From a virus: a stretch of DNA of 25,596 nt. The stretch is from IMG/VR virus record IMGVR_UViG_3300044629_000188, positions 1 through 25,596 of that record; one strand, written 5' to 3'. Positions 6,001-21,897 of the stretch are shown in pieces (positions within the stretch are counted from its first letter, which is position 1; every line of letters starts with the position of its first letter). Below the pieces are notes generated by a model. The model searched no databases, was not told the DNA's origin, and saw only the letters and a list, made by a program, of their open reading frames with translations. The translations under genes and the position numbers were made by a program.

Positions 6001-7198
6001 CGGGACCAGCAGGGCGATCTGGTGTGACGATCTGTTGCGCGACAGGTACGCCGTCAGTCGGTAGTGCGATGGTGGGCTGTGCGGCAGTCGGCTGCTCGGG
6101 CATGCCGACCATCGGTATCGCGCTGTCTGCAGGCACACGTGCAGCTTCGGCAGCGGCAGACCATTCGCTCTTAAACGCATCTATTGCCGGTGCGAGCGTA
6201 TCGATCGGTGCAGCAAGCGCGGCATCGGCGGCAGCGATAGCGTCTGGTAGCGTTGGTGCTTTAGCGATGTCGTCGACGGTGGGTGCGGGACGTGCGAGCG
6301 ATCCGAGCAGATTGCCACCGCCGCCCATTGCTGCGCCGACGAGCATGCCTTGCGCCGCAGCCTTATCAACACCTTCCATCAGCGGTTTGCCGAGCGCTGC
6401 GTTCTGCCACACCTGTTCTTGCGCAGACTGCGGCAATTCTTCAAAGACACCTTCGCTCAATCCACCTTCAAGGATGCGACGGACGATACCTTTCTTGACA
6501 GTCGCAACGGCCGCGTCCTCGCTTGCATCAGCGGCGATGCCTTTGACCAGCATCGTATCAACGTCATCAACGCCGAGCCGTTTTGCCAGACGACCGCCGA
6601 TCGCACCGAGCGCACCTGTACCGATACCGGATGCAATGGACATAGCGGACTGCGCAGCGGTCAGATCGCCGGTTGTCTGGCGAGTGCTCTCAGCCATTGA
6701 GCCTGCCGTGATCGAACCTTCGCCGATCGCAGCCGCAATCCACGGAGCGACCTTCGGCGCAGCAGCAACAACACCACGACCGACGACGCCGCCTGCGCCC
6801 ATCGAGCCGAGCGATTCGATTGCACCGTGAGCAATGACGCTAGGGTTTGCAAGCAGCGCACCGATCGTCGGGAAGAAACCGTCAGCTTGATCGACTCGAC
6901 GATTTGCGGCTTGCTGTGCCGGCGAGAGTTCTTCGTCGAGGATGCGCTTGGCTTCTTTGAATCTGACTCCCGCGCTTTCGACTAGATTGCCGACCGCACC
7001 GCCCGTTGGAATGTCAGCAAGACCGACCGCTGCTTCCGGCACTGAGATTGCAGACTTGAGCGCGGATATACCGATGTCTTTTACGGTTCCGCCGAAGGTG
7101 CGTTCTGCAGGTTTGTCGGGTGCAAACAGTTCGTCGGTAGTGTAGATACGATCAGACGAACCGAACAGTTCGTCGGTAGTGTAAATCTTGTCAGCCAT
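1..7198 (-). CDS. Giant phage polyvalent protein, 3' end beyond window
   Basis: One reading frame stays open from the ATG at 7198 to the left edge, at least 2,399 codons without a stop; the C-terminus is outside the window. The start follows a GGGAGAGG ribosome site and lies 32 nt after the previous stop. Visible order: a duplicated IYTTDELF motif (residues 5-25); an Ala/Gly-rich conserved region to about 300; a Pro/Ala linker to about 570; an HEVTH zinc-peptidase-like domain (about 600-770); an unassigned alpha/beta domain (900-1090); an HYS/GTG/DGY domain (1149-1288); an LPD5-like module (1490-1556); a very acidic stretch (about 1560-1760); a domain with E-x-Q-x-D-W and W-x-x-G-x-Q-Q motifs (1860-2262); and a second LPD5-like module (2287-2352). 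This layout is typical of polyvalent proteins that phages package and inject with their DNA. Its place directly after the internal virion genes fits an ejected cargo protein with anti-host or genome-protecting activity, which is inferred. No polymerase, helicase or transglycosylase motif was recognised in the visible part. Confidence 0.9.
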   Translation of the reverse strand, partial: MADKIYTTDELFGSSDRIYTTDELFAPDKPAERTFGGTVKDIGISALKSAISVPEAAVGLADIPTGGAVGNLVESAGVRFKEAKRILDEELSPAQQAANRRVDQADGFFPTIGALLANPSVIAHGAIESLGSMGAGGVVGRGVVAAAPKVAPWIAAAIGEGSITAGSMAESTRQTTGDLTAAQSAMSIASGIGTGALGAIGGRLAKRLGVDDVDTMLVKGIAADASEDAAVATVKKGIVRRILEGGLSEGVFEELPQSAQEQVWQNAALGKPLMEGVDKAAAQGMLVGAAMGGGGNLLGSLARPAPTVDDIAKAPTLPDAIAAADAALAAPIDTLAPAIDAFKSEWSAAAEAARVPADSAIPMVGMPEQPTAAQPTIALPTDGVPVAQQIVTPDRPAGPALIALAEQLAILPAGEQTKALMRLDADMRQRVVQTMRALDPAVPSGIVTPDAGVQPGQGEAARITNEATVAASSVQPITGTAVTNVPAYTQRAAQEIVSKDPSQEMRPHREVAGRFEVVPVISAAGPARGVFSTQPAVTEQQRLADEESPATAMPAAPVARPAVPAAPLTAEQIELNRMAADAERSSQPRPIFGPQSQLRSETGPDIKGEKVTRNMRKVLVQMGRITGTKVVFEFAPGSSDGAVPNRSENTVHINTAAQINPMQVMGHEVTHVLRDRHAKAWAAVRDALVATMPDKRKALDAFASDYWGGNAENAAKLEAARAMPDWSSALTPEQKELFHTSENTVEAFLLDEMVSDLGGQHWSDEKFWLDVFAKIEKQEGDKARGIIERMVMAIRETLGKFLAVVRAQKQGDYATISPEQIEATRDAISSAYAAFIRGERTVEPDQGEHTTEHRINTSRTHSRSQAGEGEPAVLETDDELSDARARELAALSPARVKRDQRLFFEVAPKPNEAAAWNKLSDKQQRAVSEDIKSRVIPGLLKDLGVTGTIRPQLGGWMEDTNPSFALVVTRGDPAVAARAVGYVLDQEAVYALGLKPFTGGEKTGIIHFNIDSSDRALVHKIYTQIRALDSDAISGHSTLDNEMYIGLPVERMNQLEQQVVSILDKAGVATVYFDEGFGAMIGENDYGMQSDQGSSARLRAQARDVNQWRDEARKLRGRSDAAGDRSDRAGVARKSEQRPSYGEGSGETVVGVHYSRQQRDTLSSGFFGTGMKAQERFRIAEAKDSRIKKRLYFYANTGKGIAPESDVGHHAHSVTLNNVYDMDVDPKRLYKRLAEGDPYQSPDNLMNDFEAGVIDAGFDGYMTREFGKGGAVVLLGAHSVPVQYEGERARPDVPNMPAPKFSDEQVLRRKLMANRALPAGKMTGLEWKRALLREMPELDPRWLDNDKMYRRDELVPRAEPARMSETRPMLAALQEIENGKLTMDGDYGYNTFRSLWREAESMRSEYPDERTYDLYKDNGGTGVVYGASGYNRYAVTQDGTLRPIPESFSNTDKLAAAQAALAEPVARLSESRPATWWYSPLARQADTAQMKKAPASGWKSWLKSLAAKGVKPDEIKWSGIEEWLDAQGEAQVTREQVQAYLSEFGVKIETILRGERSPVTDSTQEVDAEDSDIELNVGEWEMDDPDEDWLAERANNRFDEVVDDRVEQSWEDIYDDIEHEARTRIEVNLPDIAADVQRQMGDMFPVDETLVEQAARSIAAAQVAGDTWQEYTDDSNDMTDEAVQAEAVDRAFAVLSGDIEALEEEARRRARAEIDDDELLEELTEQERTWYYDDYESPQTRAITVDGVDGTFYDSTSYGERRVYFDGRDIPLPRRADDADVEGVIRQLVMEEGLVSGSSGGDFHSVKWESKDYNLDTRRAVPGSYREVQLTLPVGAFGMPVTETLKRDSYTVFDADGNATLGTVSEESAKREAERIGGRWEYRPDELRTERTPVKDYYYTTHWQEANVVGHARWDEHTDSDGKRVMVLQEVQGDWGQQRREGLEAAERAAVLIKQIDELGDEGVHAIFALKQVLPEAEDAWTSSDWNNVRSMGSRALSNDVSSDAKVAADKIAKLETNRRELQREYDALSRDLPDAAPFIEKTPQWAGLVLKRMIAHAVEYGFDKVVWTSGAQQVERWRHSLRKQVDTIAWEKTPDGIHIVASQNGRQRTDTRVSETALSDAIGKQMAKQIIADPNQSGEITGDDITISDTGMAGFYDRMLPNIANDILKKFDKDVRVKDIEVHKVRQYSVAPDPDTAGRWIVQQDGKELVSHPTKERAELNVESLTTSKAAIEIGTQQGFEITDKLRESAAAGMPLFSQRRASAEARKSEARKEWYRSQLSEAVGGLPAKVRTGKEAALWLQSNASKLGVKKDELQWSGVLDWLATQRSVTGAQIQDWLASNGVRVRDVMLGEESAEYKRLDAELQEQEVEVARLRKAAFGAQWKNSSSSYLAMERIN
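143..340 (-). repeat. LPD5-like helical module, copy 2
   Basis: Residues about 2287-2352 of the giant protein. It has LGVKKDELQWSGVLDWL, then T-x-x-Q-I-x-D-W-L, then NGVRVRDVML and G-E, aligned with copy 1 without large gaps. The central Trp of the WSG motif is residue 2318 here and 1517 in copy 1, so the modules lie 801 residues apart. They are clearly diverged at the DNA level, which points to an old duplication or repeated acquisition. Confidence 0.6.
413..1621 (-). other. E-x-Q-x-D-W / W-x-x-G-x-Q-Q domain of the giant protein
   Basis: Residues about 1860-2262. It contains NVVGHARWDEH (about 1903-1913), VLQEVQGDWGQQ (Glu1930, Gln1932, Asp1934, Trp1935), KRMIAHAVEYGFDKVVW (to Trp2068) with SGAQQVERW (Gly2071, Gln2073, Gln2074, Arg2077), GMAGFYDRMLP (about 2150) and ESAAAGMPLFSQRR (about 2248-2261). 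This series of motifs is widespread in giant phage and conjugative-element proteins. The conserved polar and aromatic residues suggest an active or binding site, but I know of no established reaction for it. Confidence 0.55.
2531..2731 (-). repeat. LPD5-like helical module, copy 1
   Basis: Residues about 1490-1556 of the giant protein. The pattern is W-x-x-x-L, then KGVKPDEIKWSGIEEWL, then T-x-x-Q-V-x-x-Y-L, then FGVKIETIL and R-G-E. It closely matches a second module at residues 2287-2352. I believe this is the LPD5 type of large polyvalent protein-associated domain, a small helical module of unknown role, but the family name is from memory. Confidence 0.6.
3335..3754 (-). other. Possible ADP-ribosyltransferase-like domain of the giant protein
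   Basis: Residues about 1149-1288. The order of motifs is VGVHYS (His1153, Tyr1154), FFGTGMKAQERF (about 1164-1175), KRLYFYANTGKG (about 1188), a VYDMDVDP segment, and AGFDGYM (about 1256) followed by AVVLLGAHSVPVQYEG. An N-terminal His, an aromatic strand and a closing 'DGY ... VVL ... V' pattern recur in ART-like and nuclease-like toxin domains of phage polyvalent proteins. A catalytic Glu cannot be placed with confidence, so enzyme activity is a hypothesis. Confidence 0.4.
3929..4507 (-). other. Unassigned alpha/beta domain of the giant protein
   Basis: Residues about 900-1090. It opens with LFFEVAPKPNEAAAW, continues through a GGWMEDTNPSFALVV segment and ends near AGVATVYFDEGFG. Similar segments occur in other phage polyvalent proteins as far as I recall, but I cannot assign a named family or a reaction. 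The strands around FALVVTRGD and TGIIHFNID suggest a folded alpha/beta domain, unlike the Pro/Ala-rich linker nearer the N-terminus. Confidence 0.4.
4889..5401 (-). other. Zinc metallopeptidase-like domain of the giant protein
   Basis: Residues about 600-770 of the giant protein. The HEVTH motif is at residues 667-671 (bases 5186-5200), inside the context QVMGHEVTHVLRD, where the two His and the Glu are the expected zinc-binding and catalytic residues. A downstream LLDEMVSDLGG segment contains Glu752, a plausible third zinc ligand as in gluzincin-type peptidases, although the 81-residue spacing is long. MPTase-type domains of this kind are known in polyvalent proteins. Possible roles are self-processing of the giant protein or cleavage of a host target after injection; nothing here decides between them. 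Confidence 0.65.
7125..7183 (-). repeat. 20-nt direct repeat encoding duplicated IYTTDELF
   Basis: Two identical 20-base copies lie at 7125-7144 and 7164-7183, with a 39-base (13-codon) period, right behind the start codon of the giant gene. Both encode the same peptide, IYTTDELF, within the first 25 residues. Being at the extreme N-terminus and in frame, the repeat could act as a short docking or packaging peptide; this is inference. Confidence 0.85.
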
Positions 7199-7230
7199 TT
7201 GGCCTCTCCCGATAGGAGGTTAAGGGGGTG

Positions 7231-8280
7231 TTACTTCAGCGTGGTGCGAGTTTGGATCATACCGTCTTTGCCGTATTCTTTGTCGAGCAGATTGGCTTCA
7301 ATGCCGTTGAATGCAGGTTGCGGTTTGCCACCAGCCGCTGCAGCCTTCGCTGCTCGCCACTTGTTGTCGCCGAGATACTCCATGTCGCCTTTACCGGGCA
7401 CAGGTACAACTTGACCGACAGTATACTTCTCGCCACCACCACCACCACCACCCGGCGTACCTGCACCCTTGCCACCAGTCGCCGCTGTCATTTGCGTCAG
7501 CACGTTATCGCGGGCAGCTTTTGCCTTTTCGATCGTACCAGCGTCTGTCATCGGATCGGCGATCGTCTTGTTCAGCTTTTCCAGAGTGGCCGACAGGTTC
7601 AGGTGCTTCGCGAACTCGGACGTATCGTTGCCTACATCCACACGGAACTGCTTGAGCTTCAGCGCGTCTTTTTCCATCTGCTGTTTCGCGGCGGCGATCA
7701 GATCAGGATCGTCCTTGAGCGCGACCAACCGTTCGTACTCGCTCTTGTTCGTGACGTAGGAATCCGACGTAGCGGCAAAGTCTTTCGCTTCCTGCGCCTT
7801 CAGACCAAGCTGTGCCGCCTGCTGACGAATCGTGGCGTCATGGAACCGTTTCGTCTCTTCGTGCGTCGCCTTCCACTTCTCATCAGCAGACTTCTGCGCA
7901 GCGGCCTGTGTGGTACGCAATTCGTGCTTGTCGTCAGATCGATCAGCAGCAGCATATTCCCGCTCGCTGTGGTCAATCATGCCGACCTTACTCAGCGCAT
8001 CACCACGATCACGACGATATTCGCCTTCGGTCTTTGCCCGTTCCGTCACACCGAGCGACGAACCGTCTTCGGTCGGACCGGCAATCTCGACAGTCTTGTT
8101 GCGCGATACACCAGCAAGCACCGCAGCAATACGTGCCTGCTTGTCCTGTTCGACCTTGGACTTTAGCGCCTCAAGATTCGTCGCGTCCTCAAGGTTTCGC
8201 TCACGCTTGATCGAGTCGCTGATAAGACCGGCACCTGCGCCGGCCGCTGCTGCTACACCTGCTCCAAAGTCCCAAGGCAT
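7231..8280 (-). CDS. Internal virion protein, coiled-coil (putative)
   Basis: 349 aa. The ATG follows GGAG at about 6 nt, immediately after the previous gene's stop. The N-terminus MPWDFGAGVAAAAGAGAG is a glycine/alanine-rich hydrophobic segment (1-20). Residues about 22-250 are highly charged and helical, rich in Lys, Glu, Asp and Ala, and probably form a coiled coil. A run of seven glycines near residue 280 links to a C-terminal part with YTVGQVVPVPGKGDMEYLGD, which looks like a small beta fold. No enzyme motif was recognised. Length, composition and position directly before the giant gene suggest an internal core or ejected protein comparable in role, not in sequence, to T7 gp15. The family is not recognised. 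Confidence 0.8.
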   Translation of the reverse strand: MPWDFGAGVAAAAGAGAGLISDSIKRERNLEDATNLEALKSKVEQDKQARIAAVLAGVSRNKTVEIAGPTEDGSSLGVTERAKTEGEYRRDRGDALSKVGMIDHSEREYAAADRSDDKHELRTTQAAAQKSADEKWKATHEETKRFHDATIRQQAAQLGLKAQEAKDFAATSDSYVTNKSEYERLVALKDDPDLIAAAKQQMEKDALKLKQFRVDVGNDTSEFAKHLNLSATLEKLNKTIADPMTDAGTIEKAKAARDNVLTQMTAATGGKGAGTPGGGGGGGEKYTVGQVVPVPGKGDMEYLGDNKWRAAKAAAAGGKPQPAFNGIEANLLDKEYGKDGMIQTRTTLK

Positions 8281-8281
8281 G

Positions 8282-8800
8282 TTATGCTCCTTGCATGTGT
8301 TGTTGCATCTTCGCGGCGATCGCGGGGTCTTTCATCGCCTCAGAGGTCTTGCTGAGAATCTGGTCGAAGTTGCCGCCAGACCCCTTCATCACAGTTTCCG
8401 ACATGGCACGTGTTGCCGTTTCCAGATCAGCCGCCGTACCTTCGATACGACCGGTCTGCTTCATGTAGTCAAGAATCTCGGTGAGCAAGACACCGGTTGC
8501 CGGCCCGATCAGCGCCTTCGGTAACGTGCCGCGACTCTCGCGCATGAGCACACTCAACAGTTCAGCAGCGCCAGCACCTGCGGCTGCTGCAGGATTGTCG
8601 GACGATTGCAACCGCTTCTCGACTGCGCTGTTGGTTGTCTTGTCATACAGAATTTTCTGTCCAGCAAGAATGATCCGCTGCAGCGAGGCTTGCTGGTCGG
8701 CTGGCACCTTCTGCTCGAAAGCCGCACGGGTCTTTGCAATTACGTCACCGCCGTCAGTGGCGGGTGCGGGTGCAGCGGTACTGTCGTCGATAAGTCCCAT
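8282..8800 (-). CDS. Small helical virion-associated protein (putative)
   Basis: 172 aa from the ATG at 8800, 2 nt after the upstream stop and preceded by GAGGG; a TTG at 8806 could add two residues. After a Pro/Ala-rich N-terminus (to about residue 18) the protein is mostly predicted helix, with GLIDDS at the start and a Met/Gln-rich tail. No motif gives a reaction. It sits between two internal-virion-like genes and the spacing shows it is translated with them, so a structural or core role is likely. Family not recognised. Confidence 0.75.
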   Translation of the reverse strand: MGLIDDSTAAPAPATDGGDVIAKTRAAFEQKVPADQQASLQRIILAGQKILYDKTTNSAVEKRLQSSDNPAAAAGAGAAELLSVLMRESRGTLPKALIGPATGVLLTEILDYMKQTGRIEGTAADLETATRAMSETVMKGSGGNFDQILSKTSEAMKDPAIAAKMQQHMQGA

Positions 8801-8802
8801 GA

Positions 8803-9849
8803 TCAAGCCCTCGTTTGAATAAAACCAGCCGGTCGAACGCCCGCTGCTGTAACCGGCGTCTTGTTGTAGATCGGTGCGTTGCGATTTACGGAGAAACCAC
8901 CGACAGTCGGTATCGCATTAGCATTAGCCGCCTGCGTCTGCATTTCGGCAGTACGTGCATCGTAGAGATTGGCCGTCGAATTGCTGGCCCGTGCTTGTGC
9001 GTCCAGTGCTGCCGCTTTTTCAGACGATTGGTACATGCCGGCTATGCCGGTAAGTGCAACCTGCGAAAGTTCTTTGTTCTCCTTGCCGAACTTCAGAATC
9101 TTGTCGAACAGACTTGGGCCTGTGTTGATACCATCTGCTGCAGCTTTAACGGCGGCGGCTGTTTTTTCAGGCGACGCGACACGGCTCATCAGCGAGGGTT
9201 CGCCAGATGCAGTTGCTGCAGTGTCAAGCGCAGGATTGGTCGCAGCGACAGCATCGGCAGACGCACCGGGTGTAGCGCCGGCCGCTGTACCGTCCACAAG
9301 CTGCATGGTCGGCTCGCTGACCAGACCAGTCGGTGACGCCTCGACGCCCGGTGCAAGCATACCTGACGTGTCTGCTGCACTGGTAGCGTGTGCGAGGTTC
9401 AGATCGCCGGTAGCGATCGGCGCGCTGCTGGCGCTCACGTCAGCAACCTGACTGGATGTCATACCATCAACCATTGTGGCACTGTCGGCCGTCGTCGCAG
9501 CAGAACTGATGTTGCTTGCGGTAGATGACGCAAAGGACTGATTGATCTCACCTGCCCACGATTTCATTCCCTCACCAAACATGCCGCCCTGCGCCATCGT
9601 GCCGAAACCACCGACGAGGCCCATGACGCCACCGATCTTGGCGAGGTCGGAATTACCCGTCACCATGCCGACGACGCTGACGACAGCACCGATAGCCGCG
9701 ATCGTCTCGAAGGCTGTCGCCACCGCAAAGAATGCGGTTACCGGTTCGTTACGCTCACCAAACGCAGGACCGCCGAACGGATCGCCGATCGGCGCGTCAA
9801 GTGACCATGCTCGCGTCATTGCGCGCGACAGGTAAGTTTTCTTAAACAT
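8803..9849 (-). CDS. Internal virion protein with hydrophobic N-terminus (putative)
   Basis: 348 aa, starting inside the last 8 bases of the upstream gene after a GAAAGGA site. Residues about 38-90 (FFAVATAFETIAAIGAVVSVVGMV onwards, alternating hydrophobic and glycine residues) could form one or two membrane-active helices. Residues about 105-240 are a low-complexity Ala/Ser/Thr linker. The C-terminal KFGKENKELSQVALTGIAG and SEKAAALDAQARA segments are helical and resemble podophage internal proteins. A hydrophobic segment followed by a helical tail fits a protein ejected to build a conduit through the host envelope; this is an inference from context. No catalytic motif seen. Confidence 0.8.
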   Translation of the reverse strand: MFKKTYLSRAMTRAWSLDAPIGDPFGGPAFGERNEPVTAFFAVATAFETIAAIGAVVSVVGMVTGNSDLAKIGGVMGLVGGFGTMAQGGMFGEGMKSWAGEINQSFASSTASNISSAATTADSATMVDGMTSSQVADVSASSAPIATGDLNLAHATSAADTSGMLAPGVEASPTGLVSEPTMQLVDGTAAGATPGASADAVAATNPALDTAATASGEPSLMSRVASPEKTAAAVKAAADGINTGPSLFDKILKFGKENKELSQVALTGIAGMYQSSEKAAALDAQARASNSTANLYDARTAEMQTQAANANAIPTVGGFSVNRNAPIYNKTPVTAAGVRPAGFIQTRA

Positions 9850-10198
9850 GGTTCATCCTTTCGATCCGATAATAAATGTCGTTGGCGTCACGATGCGACT
9901 CAACGAAACCCAACCGTGCAACAAACTCCTGACTTGCCGTTCGCCATACGGGAACCCGTGTAACCGCATGCCCGTACCTAGCTATAACTCCACCGAGGTG
10001 CTGCCGCAACATACTGCGCGTGCCTTGCTCGCCGTGCTTCCATGCTACGTGAATCTCGTCATCTCGCGTGAGCACGACTCCAATCAACAGCCCGTCGTGA
10101 AAAACTGGATGTCGCGTGAAACTTGACAGCGCCTGCAGATACTCTTCCTTCGTGCAAAACAAAAAGCCCGACACCTGCAACCACAGCAGGTCGTCCAT
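9842..10198 (-). CDS. GNAT-like acetyltransferase-fold protein
   Basis: 118 aa from the ATG at 10198, whose A is the last base of the upstream TGA; a GTG at 10201 is an alternative start. The region EIHVAWKHGEQGTRSMLRQH, then a helix, then VPVWRTASQEFVARLGFVES and DIYYRIERM follows the order of the second half of a GNAT fold: strand, glycine-containing turn, helix, strand, 'N/S-x-x-F-x-x-x-x-G-F' region and final strand. At about 118 aa it is short for a GNAT enzyme and the acetyl-CoA loop is atypical, so it may be non-catalytic. T7 gp13, in the equivalent place before the core genes, is as I recall also related to this fold. Confidence 0.7.
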   Translation of the reverse strand: MDDLLWLQVSGFLFCTKEEYLQALSSFTRHPVFHDGLLIGVVLTRDDEIHVAWKHGEQGTRSMLRQHLGGVIARYGHAVTRVPVWRTASQEFVARLGFVESHRDANDIYYRIERMNHV

Positions 10199-10944
10199 CA
10201 CACAACAGCCGGTGCCGCACTGAAGTTAAGCAGCTCACCGAGATTCATGTTGCCGATCGCGCCGGCAATCTCGAAGCCCTGCTTCATCAGGTAGAACTGG
10301 TTATCGACCGCAGCCTGCTTTGCTGCCAGTGTCATATCCTTGTTCGCCTGAATATCCGAGATGTTCTTGACGGTCTGCTTATACATCTCGCTGGCCGTTG
10401 CCGAGTTCTGCATGGTCGTCTTGTAGTCAGCTTCGATTGTGGCAAGCTGCGTCTTCATTGCCGCGTCCATGTTTGACTTCATCGCATCGACGGTTGCAGA
10501 CAAGTTGCGACCGGACATATCGTTGATGCCGGCCGTGTTGGTCTTGAGTGCCTCGTTCTGGTAAGCGAGGTTCTGCTTTGCATTCGTGTCATAGACCGAC
10601 GCGTCAGCCTGTGCGATTGGCAGCGCAGCCGCGTATGCTGCTTGGTCGCTGGCCGTCACCGCGAGGGACGAATTGAACAGGCCGCGCGAGTTCATCTGCT
10701 GGTTCGCGCTGGTCCGTGCCATCTGCATGTGGGGCGAGTCGGTTTCGATCAGACCTCTCATCTGACCGGCGACAGTCTCTTGCGTCGGATCGACGGTGCG
10801 CTGTGCCGAGTTGTACGTAGCGGCCTGACCGACAGGCGGGGTGACGGCAGGAAACGTCGTGCCGTCCGTATTGGCGACCGTGCCGGGCACTGCCGTTGCG
10901 GGAGGTACGAGCGGTGTGTCAATCAAACCGTTTTGGATACTCAT
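10198..10944 (-). CDS. Podophage internal virion protein family (putative)
   Basis: 248 aa, ATGA-coupled to the upstream membrane protein, with GGAGG about 9 nt before the ATG. The N-terminal 50 residues are Pro/Thr-rich. Residues about 58-115 carry VAGQMRGLIETDSPHMQMAR, NSRGLFNSSLAVTASDQAA and PIAQADASVY, a signature I recognise from virion proteins of many podophages ('SPL...A...A...RGL.NSS'). Residues about 120-210 are helical and rich in Ala, Asn and Gln; the C-terminus is hydrophobic. Probable role is a core or tail-interior protein released during DNA ejection. The signature is fairly convincing, the mechanism is not established from sequence. Confidence 0.8.
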   Translation of the reverse strand: MSIQNGLIDTPLVPPATAVPGTVANTDGTTFPAVTPPVGQAATYNSAQRTVDPTQETVAGQMRGLIETDSPHMQMARTSANQQMNSRGLFNSSLAVTASDQAAYAAALPIAQADASVYDTNAKQNLAYQNEALKTNTAGINDMSGRNLSATVDAMKSNMDAAMKTQLATIEADYKTTMQNSATASEMYKQTVKNISDIQANKDMTLAAKQAAVDNQFYLMKQGFEIAGAIGNMNLGELLNFSAAPAVV

Positions 10945-11255
10945 TTACAATGACCTCCGTTTTCAAATGGATCGAGCCAGTTGCTGCAAAAGTAATACGC
11001 AACATCGGCTCGCCAGTTATCGACACGTTTCAGTCTGCCGCATTTCTGGCTGAACGTCCATTCCTGCGGCGCGTCGACCATGAGCAGCGAGGCAAGCAGA
11101 TTGAGCAGGATGTCGACGAGCCAGCCGATCGTGACGACGACCGCACCGACAATCTTGACCTCGATGCGTAGCGTTTTCCAGTTCGCCTTGAGTGCGGTGT
11201 AGGCGAGGAAAAACACCCACACCACGAAGGGGAGGGATAGAGCAAGCCAGATCAT
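10941..11255 (-). CDS. Two-helix phage inner-membrane protein
   Basis: 104 aa, ATGA overlap with the upstream gene and a GGGAGG site. Residues about 1-22 (IWLALSLPFVVWVFFLAYTAL) and 34-60 (VKIVGAVVVTIGWLVDILLN onward) are two clear membrane segments. The soluble C-terminus has EWTFSQKCGRLKR and ends in WLDPFENGGHCK. Proteins with this layout and a closing D-P-F-x-x-x-G-H-C motif occur in many proteobacterial phages near tail and lysis genes; I know no proven function. Size and topology would allow a holin, but no endolysin or spanin is visible nearby, so this is only one possibility. Confidence 0.75.
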   Translation of the reverse strand: MIWLALSLPFVVWVFFLAYTALKANWKTLRIEVKIVGAVVVTIGWLVDILLNLLASLLMVDAPQEWTFSQKCGRLKRVDNWRADVAYYFCSNWLDPFENGGHCK

Positions 11256-11707
11256 TCGTTGATCCTCCCGGTGCGTTTGGTGATCGTCAGATCGTTGAAC
11301 GCCTTGAACTTGGCGTAAGCGTGGGAGTAATTTGGATGCTGCGGATCAAGCATGTCGACCTCTGAGATGCCTACCGTCTGAGCGAGAAGCTTCTGTACCC
11401 CAAGCATGAACTCTCTCTGAGTGCGGTGGGTAATTGGCGTGCTGGACTCCATCGCAAGGATTTCATCGTTGATCACCTTGTTGTGATCCCGTGTTGCACC
11501 GTTGGCGAAGTGGGCGAGGATGACAGGCTCGACTAAGTTCTCCGGCTCCTCGTATTCCTTCTGGCCTGTTCCGACATAGTTGGAATAGAACACCACACTA
11601 TTTCCAGCGGTGTCGATGTGCCAGCCATCCGGCCCAATTGCTGCAACAAGTTCCTGCCGCAGGATTTCGGCGTCGAAGGACTGACCTTCTTGTAGTATAT
11701 AAATCAT
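11252..11707 (-). CDS. Hypothetical protein downstream of the tail fiber
   Basis: 151 aa from the ATG at 11707, chosen because an AGGAG sits about 7 nt upstream and the start is 1 nt after the tail-fiber stop; an ATG at 11743 would add 12 residues but has no better site. The N-terminus MIYILQEGQSFDAEILRQEL is followed by GWHIDTAGNSVVFYSNYVGTG, a REFMLGVQKLL helix and HAYAKFKAFNDLTITKR. No signal peptide or membrane segment. Its place after the fiber gene suggests a fiber assembly helper or a tail-associated protein, but I do not recognise the family. Confidence 0.7.
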   Translation of the reverse strand: MIYILQEGQSFDAEILRQELVAAIGPDGWHIDTAGNSVVFYSNYVGTGQKEYEEPENLVEPVILAHFANGATRDHNKVINDEILAMESSTPITHRTQREFMLGVQKLLAQTVGISEVDMLDPQHPNYSHAYAKFKAFNDLTITKRTGRINE

Positions 11708-11708
11708 A

Positions 11709-14339
11709 TTAACTCCTTGCTTCCACGGTGAGGTTGCGTGCATAGCTAATTGCTGTCACTGAAGTTGATGCAGGGGAGCCATACAGACCCTCAACTTTAT
11801 GCAAGCCTGTTTTAAATGTTTGCGTCACTGATGGTGATATGACCATTACGCCATTAGCCGTTGGCGCAGTTGCGTACAGCATGGCAGGGGTTGTCGCATT
11901 TGATGGTGTAATAATTACACCATCAACACGCAATCCACAACTGCTGTTATTTCCAGAGGTTGCATTATTTAGACTTGAGTACATCTGAGCATCCAAGTCA
12001 CTTCCAATTAGATATAACTCCATATCTGGAAGCAGCACAGCACTCGGGCTAGAGGTAGAAGGATTCGTAGTCACCCCTCTCCGAACCTCTCGCTGCACCA
12101 CCTGTTCAAACTGATAATTCCTCGGCACACCGCACAGTTGCTTCACGCTAACCGGAGTACCGGAATTCCACAGACTCGGGAACAGTGCAGACTTATCACC
12201 TGACCAATGTGCGAACTCGGAGCAGGTGTTGCTGCCTGCGGTGGGGAGAAGCATTCCGCCTTGGTAGTATTTGACGTATGACCAGATGGCGTCGGCATTA
12301 CCGCTTGCCGCTGAAGAACCATCACCAAAGTACACCGCAGCAGAACCGCCACTACCGGCAGCTTTCCCTGTTCCATCCACAATCAATTTGCCGTTGCAGA
12401 ACAGGTAGTAATCCGATCCCTTGGCTTGAAGCACAAACACATTTTCTTGCGACTTGAAGTCACCTTGGTATGTGAATTGAACCGCACCACCGGCATCGGT
12501 TGTCAGGAAATACTCTGCAATGTTGATGCGGAAGCTGTTCGTGTTATCCGTAACCTGAAACACTACAGATTGATCGCCAGTGTTAGGCGAATAAGGAACA
12601 CGAACCTTGAATGCGACAGCCCATCCGGTTGCGCTTACAAGCGACATTCCGGTTTTTGCGTAATACCTAGAGTCAGTAGAAGCAAACCCTGCAAAGCTCT
12701 GGTACAACTTGTTGTTCTGGATGCTGAAGTAGGTAGATTCCGTACCGCCTCCAGTGAATGTCCACCCCTGCGCTGACGGCAGACTCGTCATCTGCATGTC
12801 CTGCGTCCAAGTCGGAGCAAGGCCGAAGCCATCACCGAGTCGGCAATTACCCAACTTAGCAAAGTTCACGTCCATCGTGAATGTCTGCGCCGTCAGCGGA
12901 GTTCCTACAGACACACCATCGACATAGAGTGTGGCGTAGTCGGCACCATCGCCCACAGTACGAACACGAATGCCAACATCGTGATTGCCACTTGCGACAC
13001 TGCCCGTACCCGTGACAGTAGCGACGGTGCGATCTGCTTCATAGATCGTTAGAACAGGGTAGCCACTGGCATTGATGGTGAGCGTGATCCGGTCATGGTC
13101 AAGACCGTAGGTAAAGTCCCATACGTTCGTGGATACTGCAAAGGTTCCGCGATAGAGAACGCTGCACGTCTTTCCATCGTAGAAGTTGACAAGAGGCTGC
13201 GCCACGCTGCGCGACTGATTGACCGGAGTACCGGGATTGAAGCAGAGCTTGTAATCGAACATACCACCGGATTGAATCAGGGAGTTTGCGGAGAGGTTTT
13301 GGATGAGGAAGCAGAGCGCAATCGTTGTGGTAGGCGTCCATACGGGGGCAGACGTACCCGCATTGTAATAGCCGTGCGGATACTTTTTTGCTGATGTGTA
13401 TTTCCAGACGAAGTAGTTAGATGCGTCTGTAGTTCCCATCGTCCCTAGCAAATGGTATTGCGTATTGGCGTTTATGGTTCCAGTAAATTGAATCGGATAC
13501 CATTCGCCATCCGTCTTGCTTGTAACTAACCTCCCCCCGATTGTTCCACTGATTAAATCTGCACCAGTTGGTGAGCCGCCTGAGTTAGCTCTAAACGACA
13601 ATGTTAGTGCCGCAGGGGGATTACCTACCTTGTATAACTTTACCCAGACAACTGGATTTGTCAGGTTTTCAGAAACAATGAACCCTTGAGTGAGATAGTA
13701 GACGCTTGCGGCAGAGCTAATCTGAGCAGCAGCGTTGTCCTCAATATTCCCAGTCGCCACGCTTCCAAAGCTACCATCCGGCAACGTACCCCACTGCGCT
13801 CCACCCCACTGCTGATTGAACCAGCTAGGGAGCCAGCCTGAACGGTACATGTCTTGGAAGGCTGAACCTGCGGCGGGATAGTAGTAGCCGGTGAGGGATT
13901 GTTCTGTATTTATTGGGTTGCTCAGAGATGCGTACAGCGTGTCGAAGTACACCTTAAGTGTTGCCTTCAGATTCGCCCATGTGACTTTTCGTAACAGACC
14001 TGACACACTATCCCATATACCAACTTCGTCAGCGTCGACCGGCGTTGCTTTATTTGTTGCCGCGTGTATGGTTGCTGCGATATCAACAAGATAATCAGTA
14101 CCAGCTATCGCAATAGTAGGGATACCGGTCGTGCTTATCTTCAATAGCCCGTCACCGCCAGTCGCAACCATTGCTGAGCCACTTGCGTTGATGTATACGA
14201 TCTTGTACCCATTACCAGTAAGTGCCGGCATCTTGTCGAAGCCGGCTGCAATGGCCGCAAACTCGGCCCTCATATTTGGCGTAACAACTTGACTGCCTTG
14301 CGCCGGAGTCCCGCTCGCATTAAAGAAATCGTTTGACAT
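11709..14339 (-). CDS. Tail fiber protein with lectin-like modules
   Basis: 876 aa, starting in the TAATG overlap with the hub gene. Residues 1-145 are the virion-proximal part, including NKATPVDADEVGIWDS and a LLRKVTWANLKATL segment typical of phage fibers. Residues about 200-350 (VVWVKLYKVGNPPAALTLSF, GSPTG, ANTQYHLLG) resemble a choice-of-anchor or carbohydrate-binding jelly roll. Residues about 380-510 (LVNFYDGKTCSVLYRGTF, DHDRITLTI, ATLYVDGVSVG) and about 530-695 (YFSIQNNKLYQSF, YYLFCNGKLIVDG) look like two laminin-G/concanavalin-like sandwiches. Residues 700-876 are a unique C-terminal head, probably receptor binding. No catalytic depolymerase motif is evident. Base composition is lower in GC than the neighbours (22 of 60 G+C at 13621-13680), which suggests exchange between phages. 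Confidence 0.85.
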   Translation of the reverse strand: MSNDFFNASGTPAQGSQVVTPNMRAEFAAIAAGFDKMPALTGNGYKIVYINASGSAMVATGGDGLLKISTTGIPTIAIAGTDYLVDIAATIHAATNKATPVDADEVGIWDSVSGLLRKVTWANLKATLKVYFDTLYASLSNPINTEQSLTGYYYPAAGSAFQDMYRSGWLPSWFNQQWGGAQWGTLPDGSFGSVATGNIEDNAAAQISSAASVYYLTQGFIVSENLTNPVVWVKLYKVGNPPAALTLSFRANSGGSPTGADLISGTIGGRLVTSKTDGEWYPIQFTGTINANTQYHLLGTMGTTDASNYFVWKYTSAKKYPHGYYNAGTSAPVWTPTTTIALCFLIQNLSANSLIQSGGMFDYKLCFNPGTPVNQSRSVAQPLVNFYDGKTCSVLYRGTFAVSTNVWDFTYGLDHDRITLTINASGYPVLTIYEADRTVATVTGTGSVASGNHDVGIRVRTVGDGADYATLYVDGVSVGTPLTAQTFTMDVNFAKLGNCRLGDGFGLAPTWTQDMQMTSLPSAQGWTFTGGGTESTYFSIQNNKLYQSFAGFASTDSRYYAKTGMSLVSATGWAVAFKVRVPYSPNTGDQSVVFQVTDNTNSFRINIAEYFLTTDAGGAVQFTYQGDFKSQENVFVLQAKGSDYYLFCNGKLIVDGTGKAAGSGGSAAVYFGDGSSAASGNADAIWSYVKYYQGGMLLPTAGSNTCSEFAHWSGDKSALFPSLWNSGTPVSVKQLCGVPRNYQFEQVVQREVRRGVTTNPSTSSPSAVLLPDMELYLIGSDLDAQMYSSLNNATSGNNSSCGLRVDGVIITPSNATTPAMLYATAPTANGVMVISPSVTQTFKTGLHKVEGLYGSPASTSVTAISYARNLTVEARS

Positions 14340-16393
14340 TATCGTAGGCCTCGTCTCGGGGTGTAGTGAATGATCAGACTGTTGATCGTGAATTGCCCGG
14401 TGTAATCGGTATTGTTTGCAAACGTCATTGCGATGTTTTCGGCAGACCCCATCAATTCAATCTCGCTTGGCATTAACGTCTGTCCGTCCCACACCAAACC
14501 GCTATCCCAAAACAAACCGCTGTCCCAATTACTGACTGTGAAGTTCGAGGCGTAGCTGACCTGCGCCTGCGGAGCGATGTCGGTCTTTCCGTACCCGAGC
14601 GAATAGCTGACGGTGAGCGGCGCATACGTCGAGCCGGTGATTTCCGCCGACGCCTTGCGGAACCGCTTGATGAGGCGCGGCCCACGGATCGCGTCATAAT
14701 TGAGCGTGATGTACGAATTGATCGCCACTCCATCGAAGCTGGTACCTACATCAAGCTGATGCACATAGCCGTCGTTCGATCCGAAGTACGTGACCTCATT
14801 GCCGCTGCTGTCTTCACCTTCCCACACGCAGAACACGGGATCGGGGAAATAAATAGGAAGCGAACCGATAAACTTGTCGTTTATGATTGTGGCATACAGC
14901 CCGTAACCGTTGGAGAAGAACAGTCTGTACTGGCTGCGCTCACGATTGGCGCAGCACGCCTGCCCGAACTGACGGTTACTGACAATGAACGGGCGAATAT
15001 TTGCAGAAAGCGACGCCTGATCGAAGTTGCCGTATGCCAACGTTGCGTTGAGCCCCATAATGCCGCGATCGTCCAGCGAATAGATACCGGCCATGTTCGC
15101 AGCGGTGTAATCGATAGCGCCGACGCCATTGTTGTACGTGACAAGGTTGAAGTCGGCGGTCGATGAGCCGTACAGGATAAGCGTATTGTTGCGGGTCTGT
15201 ACCAGCAGTGCGCCGCCGCTCTGCGAGCCGGGTAGAAGGATTAGATTTGTGATGCGCTCGCCGGCTGATATTTCTGCCGCGCCAAGGATTGCAGTCCATC
15301 CGAACGGATCGCCGATGCCGCTGACTTGCAAGCTGGCAACGAATGACAGGATCAGATGGTTCTTGAACACCGCGATATGCTTTGGCGTATCGGTCGGCAT
15401 TCCTGTAGCGATCGGTGCCAGTACATCGCCATCAAACTCGAAGGCTTTGTTGACGTTATCGCATCCGTAGATGCGAGTCGCACCGGTCGTTCCGCCGAAG
15501 TTGCCGGACACAAACTCGAAGTGCCCGCCCGGCGCAAGGGTGATAGATGTCTGCACGCCCGACAGAGTGACCGTGGCACCACCAGACAGCGTTGCAGCGC
15601 CTGCCGCAAAGTTTCCACTACCACCGCTCGGCGTCGTGATAACAAACGCGCCAGCGGCAGTTCCTGACCACGCGCCAGACTGTTTGCACACACGCTTGAC
15701 TGTTGCGGTCACCGCGCCCTGCGTGAGCGTCTCGCCATCGACAGGTGCAGCTGTACCACCGACTGTAAAGCTGACCGTCTTGTAGAGCGGTACAGCGGCC
15801 CATCCTGCCGCGCTCGACTTCCACACATCTACAGCTGTACCGCCAGTGTTGTTGCGGAAGGCATAGACGTTGCTGCCGTACTGCACGACGCCACGCACCG
15901 GACCGGAGCCTGTAGGTCGGGAGATAGCTGCGCGATAGCTATTGGCAGCCAGTGCGCTATAGGCGGCCGACAGTGATGCCGTTCCGCTCTGGCCGATCGT
16001 GCTGTTACACACAGCAACTACAGATACACCAACACGCAGGTTCTCACCGTCCGTGAAACCGCCAGTCGTTGCAGTCAGTACGAGTTGTCCTGTCGGCGTT
16101 GCGAGGAGCACGCCGGTCGTTCCAGAGGTCTGCCCGTTGATCGTGTCACCGAGGCTGACACTACCACCCATCGTTACACCAAGGATGGTATAGATTGCAG
16201 CTGACGGCGATGCATGCCCATCAAAACGCTCGTAACCAGCAATACGTGTGTAACCACCTGTGACATTGCACTCGTAGTTGATTGCATCACGAGCGACACC
16301 GGGTTTCAGAGACAGCGTAGGCGTGACAAGATCAAGACCGCCCTTTAGAGCTATCATCTCGTACATCACGCGAGGCATGTCCATCGGCTTCAT
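14339..16393 (-). CDS. Tail hub/nozzle-like structural protein (putative)
   Basis: 684 aa, ATGA overlap with the adaptor gene and GGGAGG about 10 nt before the ATG. After KGGLDLVTPTLSLKPGVARD and YECNVTGGYTRIAGYERFDG (about 16-60), which is a common opening of podophage tail-hub proteins, the chain is almost wholly beta-rich. It includes a Gly/Thr/Ser-rich insert with VGGTAAPVDGETLTQGAVTA (about 210-300) and propeller-like segments such as IYSLDDRGIMGLN, SQYRLFFSNGYGLYATI and VTYFGSNDGYVHQLDVG (about 440-560). The C-terminus holds a short repeat, WDSGLFWDSGLVWDG. Size and place between adaptor and fiber match the nozzle or stabilisation proteins (T7 gp12, P22 gp10) by role. Confidence 0.75.
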   Translation of the reverse strand: MKPMDMPRVMYEMIALKGGLDLVTPTLSLKPGVARDAINYECNVTGGYTRIAGYERFDGHASPSAAIYTILGVTMGGSVSLGDTINGQTSGTTGVLLATPTGQLVLTATTGGFTDGENLRVGVSVVAVCNSTIGQSGTASLSAAYSALAANSYRAAISRPTGSGPVRGVVQYGSNVYAFRNNTGGTAVDVWKSSAAGWAAVPLYKTVSFTVGGTAAPVDGETLTQGAVTATVKRVCKQSGAWSGTAAGAFVITTPSGGSGNFAAGAATLSGGATVTLSGVQTSITLAPGGHFEFVSGNFGGTTGATRIYGCDNVNKAFEFDGDVLAPIATGMPTDTPKHIAVFKNHLILSFVASLQVSGIGDPFGWTAILGAAEISAGERITNLILLPGSQSGGALLVQTRNNTLILYGSSTADFNLVTYNNGVGAIDYTAANMAGIYSLDDRGIMGLNATLAYGNFDQASLSANIRPFIVSNRQFGQACCANRERSQYRLFFSNGYGLYATIINDKFIGSLPIYFPDPVFCVWEGEDSSGNEVTYFGSNDGYVHQLDVGTSFDGVAINSYITLNYDAIRGPRLIKRFRKASAEITGSTYAPLTVSYSLGYGKTDIAPQAQVSYASNFTVSNWDSGLFWDSGLVWDGQTLMPSEIELMGSAENIAMTFANNTDYTGQFTINSLIIHYTPRRGLR

Positions 16394-17061
16394 GCCAACG
16401 GTCCTCCCATCTGGATCATCGGCAACTGATTGACTTCGAGCTTGTCGAGGGCAATACCGTATTCGTTCATACCACGGTTATACGCCTCGCCAGCCGCCTC
16501 GTAACCGCCGTAGAACATAAGTGCCCGCCACACGATACCCATGTGGAACGTCGCGGGCATGTCAGGCTCTGCGCTATCACCGGATAACTCGGCAGGTTTT
16601 TTGTAGTAGTCGTTCGTCACGGTATGGTCGCCGTTCGGTACAGGTCCGAAAGACAAGGTGTTGTCTGGATTTATCGTGAAGACCAGCGGGCGGGACTGTG
16701 CGTACCGGAGCGCACCGTACAGGTAGGAATTGCGAAAGTCGTCGTACTCGACGAAGTTCATAAATATCTCTGTGATAAGACCCTGCGATGTCACGTAGTT
16801 ACGACACGTATCGAGTGTCCATGTTGCAACGTCAGTTGCCACTGCCGTGTAAGTACCGGATTGGCCGGCGACAGTGACGATGGTTGCCGACTTGCGCATC
16901 CACCGCCACGTCGTATGGGCCGACTGGATGTCGAGCCACGCCTGCTGAATCCAGTTGACAACCCGCCCCAACTCGCCCGTTTGATTGACGGTCGTTGTCA
17001 TAGGCTGTGCCGTGATACCAGCTTCAGCAATAAGCCTATTGCATAATTGGAGCAGAGTCAT
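16390..17061 (-). CDS. Head-tail adaptor protein, SU10-type
   Basis: 223 aa, starting 4 nt after the previous stop. The N-terminus LLQLCNRLIAEAGIT, then GELGRVVNWIQQAWLDIQ and WRWMRKSATI (about residues 28-60), is the typical opening of the phage adaptor family that joins the portal ring to the tail. RPLVFTINPDNTLSFGPVPN (about 124-143) and a helical C-terminus with FHMGIVWRALMFYGGYEAAG complete the pattern. Length agrees with SU10-like adaptors. It is ATGA-coupled to the hub gene downstream, as expected for stoichiometric tail parts. The SU10 family name is from memory, the adaptor role is well supported. Confidence 0.8.
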   Translation of the reverse strand: MTLLQLCNRLIAEAGITAQPMTTTVNQTGELGRVVNWIQQAWLDIQSAHTTWRWMRKSATIVTVAGQSGTYTAVATDVATWTLDTCRNYVTSQGLITEIFMNFVEYDDFRNSYLYGALRYAQSRPLVFTINPDNTLSFGPVPNGDHTVTNDYYKKPAELSGDSAEPDMPATFHMGIVWRALMFYGGYEAAGEAYNRGMNEYGIALDKLEVNQLPMIQMGGPLA

Positions 17062-20840: not shown

Positions 20841-21193
20841 ACCAGCCTCTTCAGCTTGTAGAGCGTCTTCTGATACAGCGCCACAACATCATCCAGTAGC
20901 GCGAGCAGCGACGGGTCTTCCTGACAGGTATCGTCACGAGTGGCCTGCAGCCAGTCGATGTCGTCCTGCATTTGCACATCAATGTCATACTTGCCGCTCG
21001 GCAGCGTCACGTCGAAGTCACCGACCAGATCGAACATGCCTTGGTACGCTTCGACCAGCGCATCAACCGCACCGGGCAGTGCCTCGTAGAACGCACCGAG
21101 CGCCATGTGCCGAGCGTAGCTGTCCGTGCGGAAGTGCTCGCGGTGAGCAGCGTCACGCATGGCGAAGGTGCGGGAAACCAGTTCATCGATCAT
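20837..21193 (-). CDS. DUF5856/ferritin-like small protein (putative)
   Basis: 118 aa from the ATG at 21193, chosen because it makes an ATGA overlap with the HNH gene and has GGAG upstream; an ATG at 21217 would add eight residues. The core SRTFAMRDAAHREHFRTDSY, then ARHMALGAFYEALPGAVDAL and VEAYQGMFDLVG, reads as two long helices with conserved His, Glu and Asp. This looks like the DUF5856 group, whose helices recall Dps/ferritin-like bundles. A metal site is possible (His, Glu on neighbouring turns) but unproven. Possibly head-associated or involved in protecting DNA. Confidence 0.75.
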   Translation of the reverse strand: MIDELVSRTFAMRDAAHREHFRTDSYARHMALGAFYEALPGAVDALVEAYQGMFDLVGDFDVTLPSGKYDIDVQMQDDIDWLQATRDDTCQEDPSLLALLDDVVALYQKTLYKLKRLV

Positions 21194-21897
21194 TTGCGCC
21201 ACTCCATCTGCGTCCACGGAACATCAATCCGCTTGTTTGCCTTTTTGAGATTCAACGCTGCCGGGATTACAGCGAGATTGAACGCATTGTGAAGACCAGA
21301 TACGGTACTGCCGTGCAACGGCTCAATATGATCGACATGCCATTTGATGCCAGTCATAGTTGTGCGGCACCGACGTAAAATTGCAGCTTCCTCAAGCACC
21401 AAGACATCGAGTTCTGTTTTCCTACCGCTGCGAAGGACACCCGTGTGTCGTTTGCGCAACGAGGCATACAGTCTCTCTGGATATTTCGCACGATATGCAC
21501 GCTGACGGTTGTTGACTTTGTCTCTATTGGCCTTTGCATAAACACTGGCGCGAGCTTTGTTTGTTGTAGCATCCGCCGCGTATAGCTTCTTGCGATATTC
21601 AGGATCAGCCGCAACAAAAGCCGCAGTACGCGCACGTTGGTAAGCGACCAGTGCATCACGATTTGCCAACCACCTAGCATTGAAATAATCAGGATTCTTT
21701 GCGAGCCATTCAGCGCGATAGGTTGGTCGTTTTGCAAACCACTCTTTTTGATATTGTGAGATACGCTCGGCGTTATCCTTTTTCCATTGCGCCATATACA
21801 ACTTCTTGCACGGCTTGCACCGTGACGCATTTTTTGGGAACGCAGTAACAGCCAGAACCGCACCACAATTACTGCAGGTTTTAGTTAGTGTGTTCAT
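21190..21897 (-). CDS. HNH endonuclease with N-terminal zinc ribbon
   Basis: 235 aa, ATGA-coupled to the portal gene with little ribosome-site sequence. Cys8, Cys11, Cys27 and Cys30 form a C-x2-C...C-x2-C zinc ribbon. Residues about 35-150 are a basic, Tyr/Arg/Ala-rich helical region with irregular repeats, probably for DNA contact. The nuclease centre is WHVDHIEPL (His187, His190) followed by GLHNAFNLAVIPAALNLKKA (Asn207, Asn216) and Asn221, a standard HNH pattern. It is either a homing-type mobile gene or a packaging nuclease; the insertion between portal and head genes and its lower GC (52 of 120 at 21661-21780) favour the mobile reading. Without a zinc-ribbon-targeted site known, the target is unknown. 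Confidence 0.88.
   Translation of the reverse strand: MNTLTKTCSNCGAVLAVTAFPKNASRCKPCKKLYMAQWKKDNAERISQYQKEWFAKRPTYRAEWLAKNPDYFNARWLANRDALVAYQRARTAAFVAADPEYRKKLYAADATTNKARASVYAKANRDKVNNRQRAYRAKYPERLYASLRKRHTGVLRSGRKTELDVLVLEEAAILRRCRTTMTGIKWHVDHIEPLHGSTVSGLHNAFNLAVIPAALNLKKANKRIDVPWTQMEWRK

Follow-up and report, generated by a model that had tools for sequence, protein, structure and literature searches.

A conserved gene module ahead of a giant polyvalent protein in a virus record: a probable ejection cassette of short-tailed phages with co-varying terminal peptides

Introduction

In short-tailed phages a small number of proteins kept in the head are ejected first and give rise to a channel, as described for T7, DEV and SU10 (PMC8954989; PMC10925440; PMC9509320). 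For phage N4 it is reported that the small membrane protein gp52 has about 16 residues of its N-terminus within the adaptor lumen, in 12 copies, and that these are gone after ejection (PMC12633501). Entry of the P22 ejection proteins into the procapsid is described as depending on the scaffold, and T4 as having a capsid targeting sequence (PMC8402733). Polyvalent proteins of phages are likewise thought to be packaged and injected (PMC5512222). The question behind these examples is how phages choose, store and order the proteins ejected before the DNA. In the present study a module of five small genes ahead of a giant gene was analyzed in the virus record IMGVR_UViG_3300044629_000188 (positions 1 to 25,596; this whole stretch of 25.6 kb is called the window), with regard to conservation in relatives, terminal sequence motifs and likeness to the ejection systems named above. 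An earlier note on this DNA had read the five genes as a divergent ejection module whose proteins build a conduit through the envelope, and had thought that they may be an undescribed set.

Results

Conservation of the module

The five proteins, named by their length in amino acids (aa), follow each other on the minus strand in the order 248, 119, 348, 174 and 349 aa, immediately ahead of the giant gene, as the earlier note had placed them. They are packed tightly: the first four genes overlap by 4, 8 and 4 bases, a single base separates the fourth from the fifth, and 32 bases lie between the fifth and the start of the giant at 7198. Judged by their sequences, the five open reading frames (ORFs) are genes rather than chance frames, because each has non-identical relatives in other contigs (24–96% identity) in the same order.

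With the 248-aa protein as query ten loci were found, and with an alignment of its relatives 60. Iterated profiles over 65 sequences with 6465 ORFs matched 63 ORFs for the family of the 248-aa protein (p248), 52 for that of the 174-aa protein (p174), 25 for the 348-aa, 16 for the 119-aa and 11 for the 349-aa family. The 52 p174 matches, of which that in locus L054 (E 0.00017) is doubtful, fall one per sequence, and all 52 sequences also contain p248. With the window left aside, p248 and p174 shared one strand in 51/51 sequences, a count that includes near-copies, with p174 downstream at a median distance of 1378 bases. The usual layout consists of two small genes between p248 and p174 (slots A and B, the places of the 119- and 348-aa proteins), followed by a gene of about 300 aa (slot C, the place of the 349-aa protein) and the giant. 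An ORF abutted p174 in 42 of the 51 sequences, an ORF of at least 500 aa followed within 3 kb in 37, and 34 presented both; for at least ten of the 14 sequences that lack a giant, the length indicates that the contig or locus stops at this point.

Both p248 and p174 also occur in bacterial contigs, among them records of Hahella, Acidovorax, Phenylobacterium and Curvibacter. The layout is also found in cultivated phages, not all of which have slot A or a GNAT protein in it: Pseudoalteromonas phage Y3 (519-150-317-216-318-3421 aa), Slicky01 (620-321-173-494-1222 aa; p248 by profile at E 6.6e-18, p174 by place only, E 0.06), Vibrio phage 219E41 (190-102-338-217-325-706 aa; p248 E 1.4e-20, p174 E 1.1e-13, its p174 being matched by 28 Vibrio records in all) and Escherichia coli phage PTXU04 (377-100-318-185-228-284-2197 aa, with one extra gene; p248 E 9e-14, p174 E 8.5e-8). 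In HMO-2011, gp25 is a p248 relative by profile (E 5e-16). When ten module proteins of HMO-2011, Y3 and MW202426 were compared with PHROG, two gave weak matches of unknown function and eight none. Two names in public records are likely misannotations: the p174 member of Y3 (L015, 22472-23122) is called 'nuclear receptor coactivator 2', and Slicky01 has, close to its tail genes, a gene (L129, 767-2392) called 'dimodular nonribosomal peptide synthetase'.

In many contigs the module comes after the genes of the adaptor and of a protein here called hub (684 aa in the window; its relatives in Y3 and MW202426 bear the annotation 'stabilization protein'). Elsewhere it comes after the portal gene, which stands directly before it in L056 and L057 and is separated from it by one small ORF in L032 and L035. 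This placement bears on the idea that the genes encode parts of the tail exterior or of tail assembly, such as fibre adaptors or chaperones, instead of internal proteins. In the window the module indeed comes after an 876-aa gene, called spike-like from its place only, and two small genes, and tail fibres are likewise modular and diverse. The loci with the portal directly ahead, the giant polyvalent protein after the module, the strongly hydrophobic slot B and the lack of any tail-fibre family among the Pfam and PHROG matches of the five proteins at E 1 or better argue against tail parts, which we regard as improbable.

Terminal peptides and their co-variation

Four of the five window proteins (248, 348, 174 and 349 aa) start or end with a peptide of glycine and two hydrophobic residues (Table 1), hereafter called tag. 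It was counted as G-[LIVMF]-[LIVM]-not-G/P within 16 terminal residues, in 39 of the 52 p174 sequences, four of which belong to the clade of the window (L002, L007, L010, L011); the window, L003-L006, L008, L009, L032, L038, L054, L056, L063 and L067 were left out as window, near-copies, truncated or doubtful. The tag was present at the N-terminus of p248 in 15 loci (shuffle mean 1.2), at the C-terminus of slot B in 14 (1.8), and at the N- and C-terminus of p174 in 13 (1.1) and 11 (1.7), respectively, each count being reached in 0/500 shuffles. At least one of these four main termini was tagged in 28/39 loci. Slot C carried it at the N-terminus in 11/36 (shuffle mean 4.6, 0/500) and at the C-terminus in 7/36 (1.7, 2/500). 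No enrichment over shuffles was detected in slot A, giant, hub, adaptor, capsid, portal and scaffold.

The tags on different proteins of one phage resemble each other. Within-phage agreement amounted to 81.6% at position 3, compared with 35.4% when permuted across loci (0/2000), and to 60.5% compared with 38.4% at position 2 (6/2000), in 38 pairs from 17 loci, one pair being the two ends of one protein (L042). For this comparison the pattern was slightly wider (18 residues, C-termini of slots A and C included); L010 and L011 were kept, L002 and L007 additionally dropped, and L114 (p174 by position, no profile match) and L121 added. Without the window clade the remaining 29 pairs agreed in 75.9% against 36.8% at position 3 (0/2000) and in 69% against 38.3% at position 2 (3/2000), and the N-terminal copy of slot C followed at position 3 (76.9% against 41.3%, 5/2000). 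Examples are GIIS/GIVN/GIVA in L026 and GLIS/GLIN/GLIN in L025; in L114, MGILNSMS and MGILDSMA start two different proteins. As a hold-out, three scans with p174 sub-alignments yielded 11 new contigs, seven of which were looked at and five were independent, their p174 being 44–56% identical to the closest earlier one (L134 and L137 were dropped as near copies). With the pattern unchanged, these five bore a tag at 6/20 main termini, where 0.59 were expected (0/2000 shuffles).

Alternatively, such ends might serve in membrane contact, be sites for a protease, or result from a composition rich in Gly and Ala. In favour of this, the motif is short as well as hydrophobic, the Gly/Ala-rich starts of slot C raise the chance rate, as seen in the shuffle mean of 4.6 among 36, and a shared protease site would fit the co-variation too. 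Against this, shuffles of the same residues never reached the counts at the four main termini, positions 2 and 3 co-vary within phages across different proteins, something not predicted from composition alone, and the seven other protein classes were not enriched. We hold this explanation to be possible but somewhat doubtful, and prefer docking tags.

A different tag was observed in L035, L121 and L122, the latter two from Acidovorax, where p174 starts with MNLNE[LM]AQ and has NLAQMAQ near its end. As the giants of L035 and L121 have MNLxxLAxxG at or near their start, tag sharing in these phages may include the giant.

The giant polyvalent protein

The giant extends beyond the window. It comprises 4379 aa in contig G002, and for all proteins compared in locus L003 this contig and the window agree. 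By its domain content it is a polyvalent protein, since LPD38 (144.9 bits, cut-off 27, E 4e-42) and ART-PolyVal (52.5 bits, cut-off 31.2, E 1e-13) are present, both beyond the portion inside the window. No transglycosylase or polymerase domain was found by Pfam in the 4379 aa.

Near its start the window giant repeats a short peptide (KIYTTDELF...RIYTTDELF), and the giant of L060 another one (RFNPGLFDDE...IFSPGLFDDD); the peptide is phage-specific. Compared with shuffles, an internal repeat in the first 60 residues was detected in 15/32 giants at p≤0.005 and in 16/32 at p 0.05, three of the 32 (L007, L010, L011) belonging to the window clade. At p≤0.005 the controls gave 0/35 hubs, 0/16 portals, 0/17 capsid proteins, 0/36 adaptors, 0/34 p174 and 2/45 p248, and at p 0.05 3/35 hubs, 1/34 p174 and 4/45 p248. 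Among the independent hold-outs 3/5 giants reached p≤0.005. The tandem peptide is present in PTXU04 and in the 706-aa protein in the giant's place of Vibrio phage 219E41 (0/200 shuffles each), and absent in Y3 (139/200). A tandem peptide in every giant was rejected, as 16/32 fail p 0.05 and the near-duplicate hold-outs L134 and L137 were negative. The giants of L026, L042 and L148 have a longer repeat of about 20 residues, like ARxAGYSDDEIADFLA, and perhaps form a separate class.

The effector domains of the giant after the module, together with the packaging and injection proposed for polyvalent proteins (PMC5512222), would also suit a kit that injects the giant only, with the DNA conduit made from other proteins. 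No other candidate conduit genes were seen in the window, and one set is described as doing both in T7, N4 and DEV (PMC8954989; PMC12633501; PMC10925440), which makes a separate kit improbable compared with a cassette that serves both.

The proteins of the module

No significant Pfam or PHROG match was obtained for any of the five window proteins, the best (E 0.0097) and all others being far below curated cut-offs or functionless. This includes the 248-aa protein, which the earlier note had singled out as the recognizable one. The SPHMQ...RGLFNSS signature pointed out there does lie in this protein, within its most conserved region: in 40 aligned relatives conservation is highest in and after the signature, including A76, R87, G88, L89, N91, S92, S93, A107, P109, I110 and A111. 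Helical character had been assumed as well and is supported by the predicted models of two of the proteins. That of the 248-aa protein shows an 86-residue helix at low confidence (predicted local distance difference test, pLDDT, 70; predicted template modeling score, pTM, 0.39), and was considered too weak for claims on its fold; that of the 174-aa protein is a helical bundle (pLDDT 84, pTM 0.70).

Comparison of the p248 profile with solved structures gave protein H of phage phiX174 at E 0.12, which is not evidence, and among 40 p248 proteins Pfam detected DUF4214 in two and two other families in one each, none of them wider. The p174 model matched nothing in PDB at E 0.001 or better (Foldseek). 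VIA-align returned only helical bundles (spidroin C-terminal domain, Z 7.2, root mean square deviation 2.7, 96 aligned; a designed repeat, Z 6.4; Bcl-2 types, Z up to about 4.9), which were taken as a common helical arrangement and rejected as kinship. Designed helical proteins matched by the p174 profile among solved structures (best E 2.6e-9) were likewise read as composition. In a viral structure library the model matched two uncharacterized phage proteins (E 3.9e-5 and 8.6e-4), and none of 36 p174 proteins matched a PHROG at E 0.001. The p248 and p174 proteins form two widespread families for which no relevant Pfam or PHROG family was found.

Hydrophobic Ala/Gly segments, a further point of the earlier note, are pronounced only in the 348-aa protein, which reaches a Kyte-Doolittle maximum of 1.97 over 19 residues (windows of at least 1.4 start at residues 36-50), whereas the other four reach only 0.79–1.18, the 349-aa protein at its Gly/Ala-rich N-terminus, after which a charged region follows. 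Among slot-B relatives 23/37 have a hydrophobicity of at least 1.6. By tblastn the first 36 residues of the 348-aa protein match MW202520 (E 1e-4) and 'putative internal protein A' of phage PBR31 (E 3e-2). Since the profiles of the 348- and 119-aa families contain members from PBR31 and MW202520, profile matches to those phages arise by construction, and the independent link consists of this tblastn match and the comparison of locus proteins. A profile of the 348-aa family found nothing among solved structures.

Relatives of the 119-aa protein stand directly ahead of internal protein A of PBR31 and of its MW202520 counterpart. The Pfam cut-off for GNAT was passed by 4/10 slot-A relatives, ten proteins picked by eye mostly for GNAT looks from a list that also has wrong-frame ORFs, and the slot-A protein of Y3 matches GNAT too; the window protein itself has no GNAT family match in Pfam. 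Solved structures matched by the 119-aa profile include GNATs (top E 0.005), the profile itself containing the Y3 GNAT. The internal virion protein family phrog_308 was matched by 1/7 relatives (E 0.043). Among 18 known proteins compared with the profile, T7 gp13, named probable scaffold protein in Pfam, was best (E 0.00072; hhalign probability 8.7 against at most 0.3 for the rest), which is not decisive. The slot-A genes of L047 and L152 seem to encode a different enzyme-type fold, in L047 perhaps a cupin-like one by eye, and the place may take exchangeable small proteins.

Because of the T7 gp13 place, the scaffold name of gp13 and the several GNAT relatives, the 119-aa protein would more likely be an assembly factor of the gp13 kind than part of a conduit. 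The GNAT relatives in slot A could also speak for an active acetyltransferase injected as an effector. This is unlikely given the small size of the window protein and its lack of a GNAT family match, the scaffold name of gp13 in the same place, and the non-GNAT protein that other phages have there.

Gene neighborhood and features of the window

On the minus strand of the window an SU10-type portal (21894-24269) and an adaptor (16390-17061) were identified by Pfam and PHROG. In gene order this strand further carries a scaffold-like gene, the major capsid protein, the hub, the spike-like protein, two small genes, the five module genes and the start of the giant. A consensus scan of 7000-11800 detected no sigma-70-like promoter. 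The features of the module are compiled in Table 1.

Table 1. Features of the module and of the giant in the window.
Feature	Position	Strand	Basis or remark
248-aa protein, family p248	10198-10944	-	ORF; family of 63 ORFs; long predicted helix; conserved A..RGLxNSS...A..PIA..DA core
N-terminal tag GLID of p248 (MSIQNGLIDTP)	10918-10929	-	motif
SPHMQ...RGLFNSS, part of most conserved p248 stretch	10666-10737	-	alignment of relatives
119-aa protein (GTG start; 118 aa from next ATG), slot A	9842-10201	-	GNAT-like by relatives; T7 gp13 place
348-aa Ala/Gly-rich protein, slot B	8803-9849	-	strongly hydrophobic segment; N-terminus like PBR31 'putative internal protein A'
Hydrophobic segment of 348-aa protein, residues 36-68	9646-9744	-	Kyte-Doolittle
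C-terminal tag GFIQ of 348-aa protein (AGFIQTRA)	8815-8826	-	motif
174-aa protein (TTG start; 172 aa from ATG), family p174	8282-8806	-	predicted helical bundle
N-terminal tag GLID of p174 ((M)GLIDDS)	8786-8797	-	motif
349-aa protein, slot C	7231-8280	-	Gly/Ala N-terminal segment, then charged region; place kept, sequence diverged
C-terminal tag GMIQ of 349-aa protein (DGMIQTRTTLK)	7252-7263	-	motif
Giant polyvalent protein, first 2399 aa	2-7198	-	ORF; 4379 aa in contig G002
Tandem N-terminal peptide of giant, IYTTDELF twice	7124-7186	-	repeat test run on identical N-terminus of L007

The two small genes ahead of the module encode 104 aa (10941-11255), hydrophobic at the start, and 163 aa (11252-11743). 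They gave no useful family match in Pfam or PHROG and are full-length only in L002-L004 among the loci compared. Between the portal and the scaffold region a 235-aa ORF (21190-21897) with a CxxC...CxxC start is possibly an HNH-type or zinc-binding insertion.

Discussion

The observed gene order and families, the polyvalent giant, the enrichment of the tag and its co-variation within phages were considered together, and with a probability of about three in four the module would be an ejection cassette of a short-tailed phage, encoding internal virion proteins, with terminal peptides that are proposed here as docking tags. The ejection module claimed by the earlier note thus finds support in its conservation, its placement like the internal proteins of T7, P22, N4 and SU10, its membrane-type protein and the giant after it; support is missing for the 118-aa protein, which is probably no conduit component and is the one with a recognizable kind (GNAT-like relatives, gp13 slot).

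In such a cassette the 348-aa protein could be the membrane component, in the role of T7 gp14 or N4 gp52, and the 248-, 174- and 349-aa proteins may be kept next to the portal and form or line a channel through the envelope. The GNAT-like 119-aa protein would help in assembly, and the giant would be a polyvalent effector passing through the channel. The terminal and tandem peptides would hold the cargo to a common partner, either the portal or adaptor lumen or the scaffold, until ejection, since a shared docking site would produce a peptide repeated on unrelated cargo and drifting in step within a phage. The N-terminus of N4 gp52 may be regarded as a precedent for docking peptides at termini. 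Going further, it is conceivable, and offered here tentatively, that the peptides form a phage-specific address code, in which unrelated ejection proteins share G-hydrophobic-hydrophobic-x, the giant has its own tandem peptide, and a site near the portal reads each, so that loading and release are ordered and the code drifts with its reader.

Several points weigh against an ejection cassette with docking tags. Slot A is not uniform: judged by eye, L028, L043, L046, Vibrio phage 219E41 and PTXU04 have a short hydrophobic protein in this place and L025, L045, L052 and L058 a larger one, and Slicky01 has no gene there. In iterated searches slot-B proteins form a group of 20/34, and slot-C proteins link by sequence only in small groups (largest 7/31), beyond which no linkage was found, and slot C was rejected as a single sequence family. 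The tag pattern was defined after part of the relatives had been seen, and only the five hold-out loci are independent of it. None of the four main termini is tagged in 11/39 loci, and Vibrio phage 219E41, Slicky01 and PTXU04 present no clear terminal tag. No co-variation exists at position 4 (38 pairs, 17 loci), and the N-terminal copy of slot C shows no agreement at position 2. Profile comparison with T7 gp13-16, SU10 gp20-24, N4 gp50-53 and P22 gp7/14/16/20 revealed no convincing homology (the best being the E 0.00072 of gp13), and Pfam detected no transglycosylase in the five proteins or the giant, unlike in SU10 and T7.

A motif that is repeated on unrelated cargo and co-varies per phage would provide a sequence handle on the sorting step, and names and places are now given to two widespread families. 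Direct tests of the module are possible, as most of it occurs in PTXU04, a phage of E. coli that has no GNAT in it, and in marine phages that have been cultivated. For the terminal tag, p174 of Y3 is suited, and for the tandem start of the giant PTXU04 and Vibrio phage 219E41. In titles and abstract openings of the literature on targeting and motifs of ejection proteins and on polyvalent proteins, no description of the two families, of the module with its polyvalent end, of co-varying tags or of a tandem giant start was found. The passages of PMC5512222 that were compared mention neither companion small genes of this kind nor N-terminal tandem peptides, and its text does not contain the word 'ejection'.

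Comparison with known ejection systems

With T7 gp13-gp16 the module shares a gene run from small to very large after tail genes, consisting of a small gene, a small membrane protein and larger ones. The T7 set is headed by gp13, GNAT-like by reading of its sequence, whereas here p248 precedes the gp13 place, three proteins instead of two lie between that place and the giant, and the giant is polyvalent, with no transglycosylase domain found. No profile matched gp14, gp15 or gp16 better than E 0.06. In T7 itself (L073), APIVAA stands near the C-termini of both gp14 and gp15 (p 0.002 in one of 48 comparisons); as a shared tag it was rejected and not built on, being partial in T3 and not kept in SP6 or phiKMV.

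N4 gp52-gp51-gp50 and DEV gp73-gp72-gp71 (Schitoviridae) likewise comprise a small membrane protein, a helical tunnel protein and a giant multidomain protein. The present locus differs in more small genes and in a giant lacking a polymerase domain; the first 16 residues of N4 gp52 have no G-hydrophobic-hydrophobic motif, and the best match to gp50-gp52 was that of the p248 profile to gp52 (E 0.058). The P22-like Xanthomonas phage PBR31 is similar in that a p119 relative immediately precedes internal protein A and that the latter matches the 348-aa protein over its first approximately 36 residues, but has three annotated internal proteins, A-C, the largest of 581 aa, and no p174 by profile.

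SU10 shares the type of portal and adaptor (Pfam) and has five ejection proteins, gp20-gp24, in a row with the largest last. Its gp20 is described as a transglycosylase (PMC9509320), and the best match among 31 proteins was that of the p174 profile to gp20 (E 0.023). A set of five ejection proteins, which the earlier note thought might be undescribed, is accordingly of a known kind (PMC9509320), and the module is best placed as a variant of the podoviral ejection cassette. As far as libraries and searches show, it is new in its p248 and p174 families, its polyvalent end, its co-varying tags and the tandem start of its giant.

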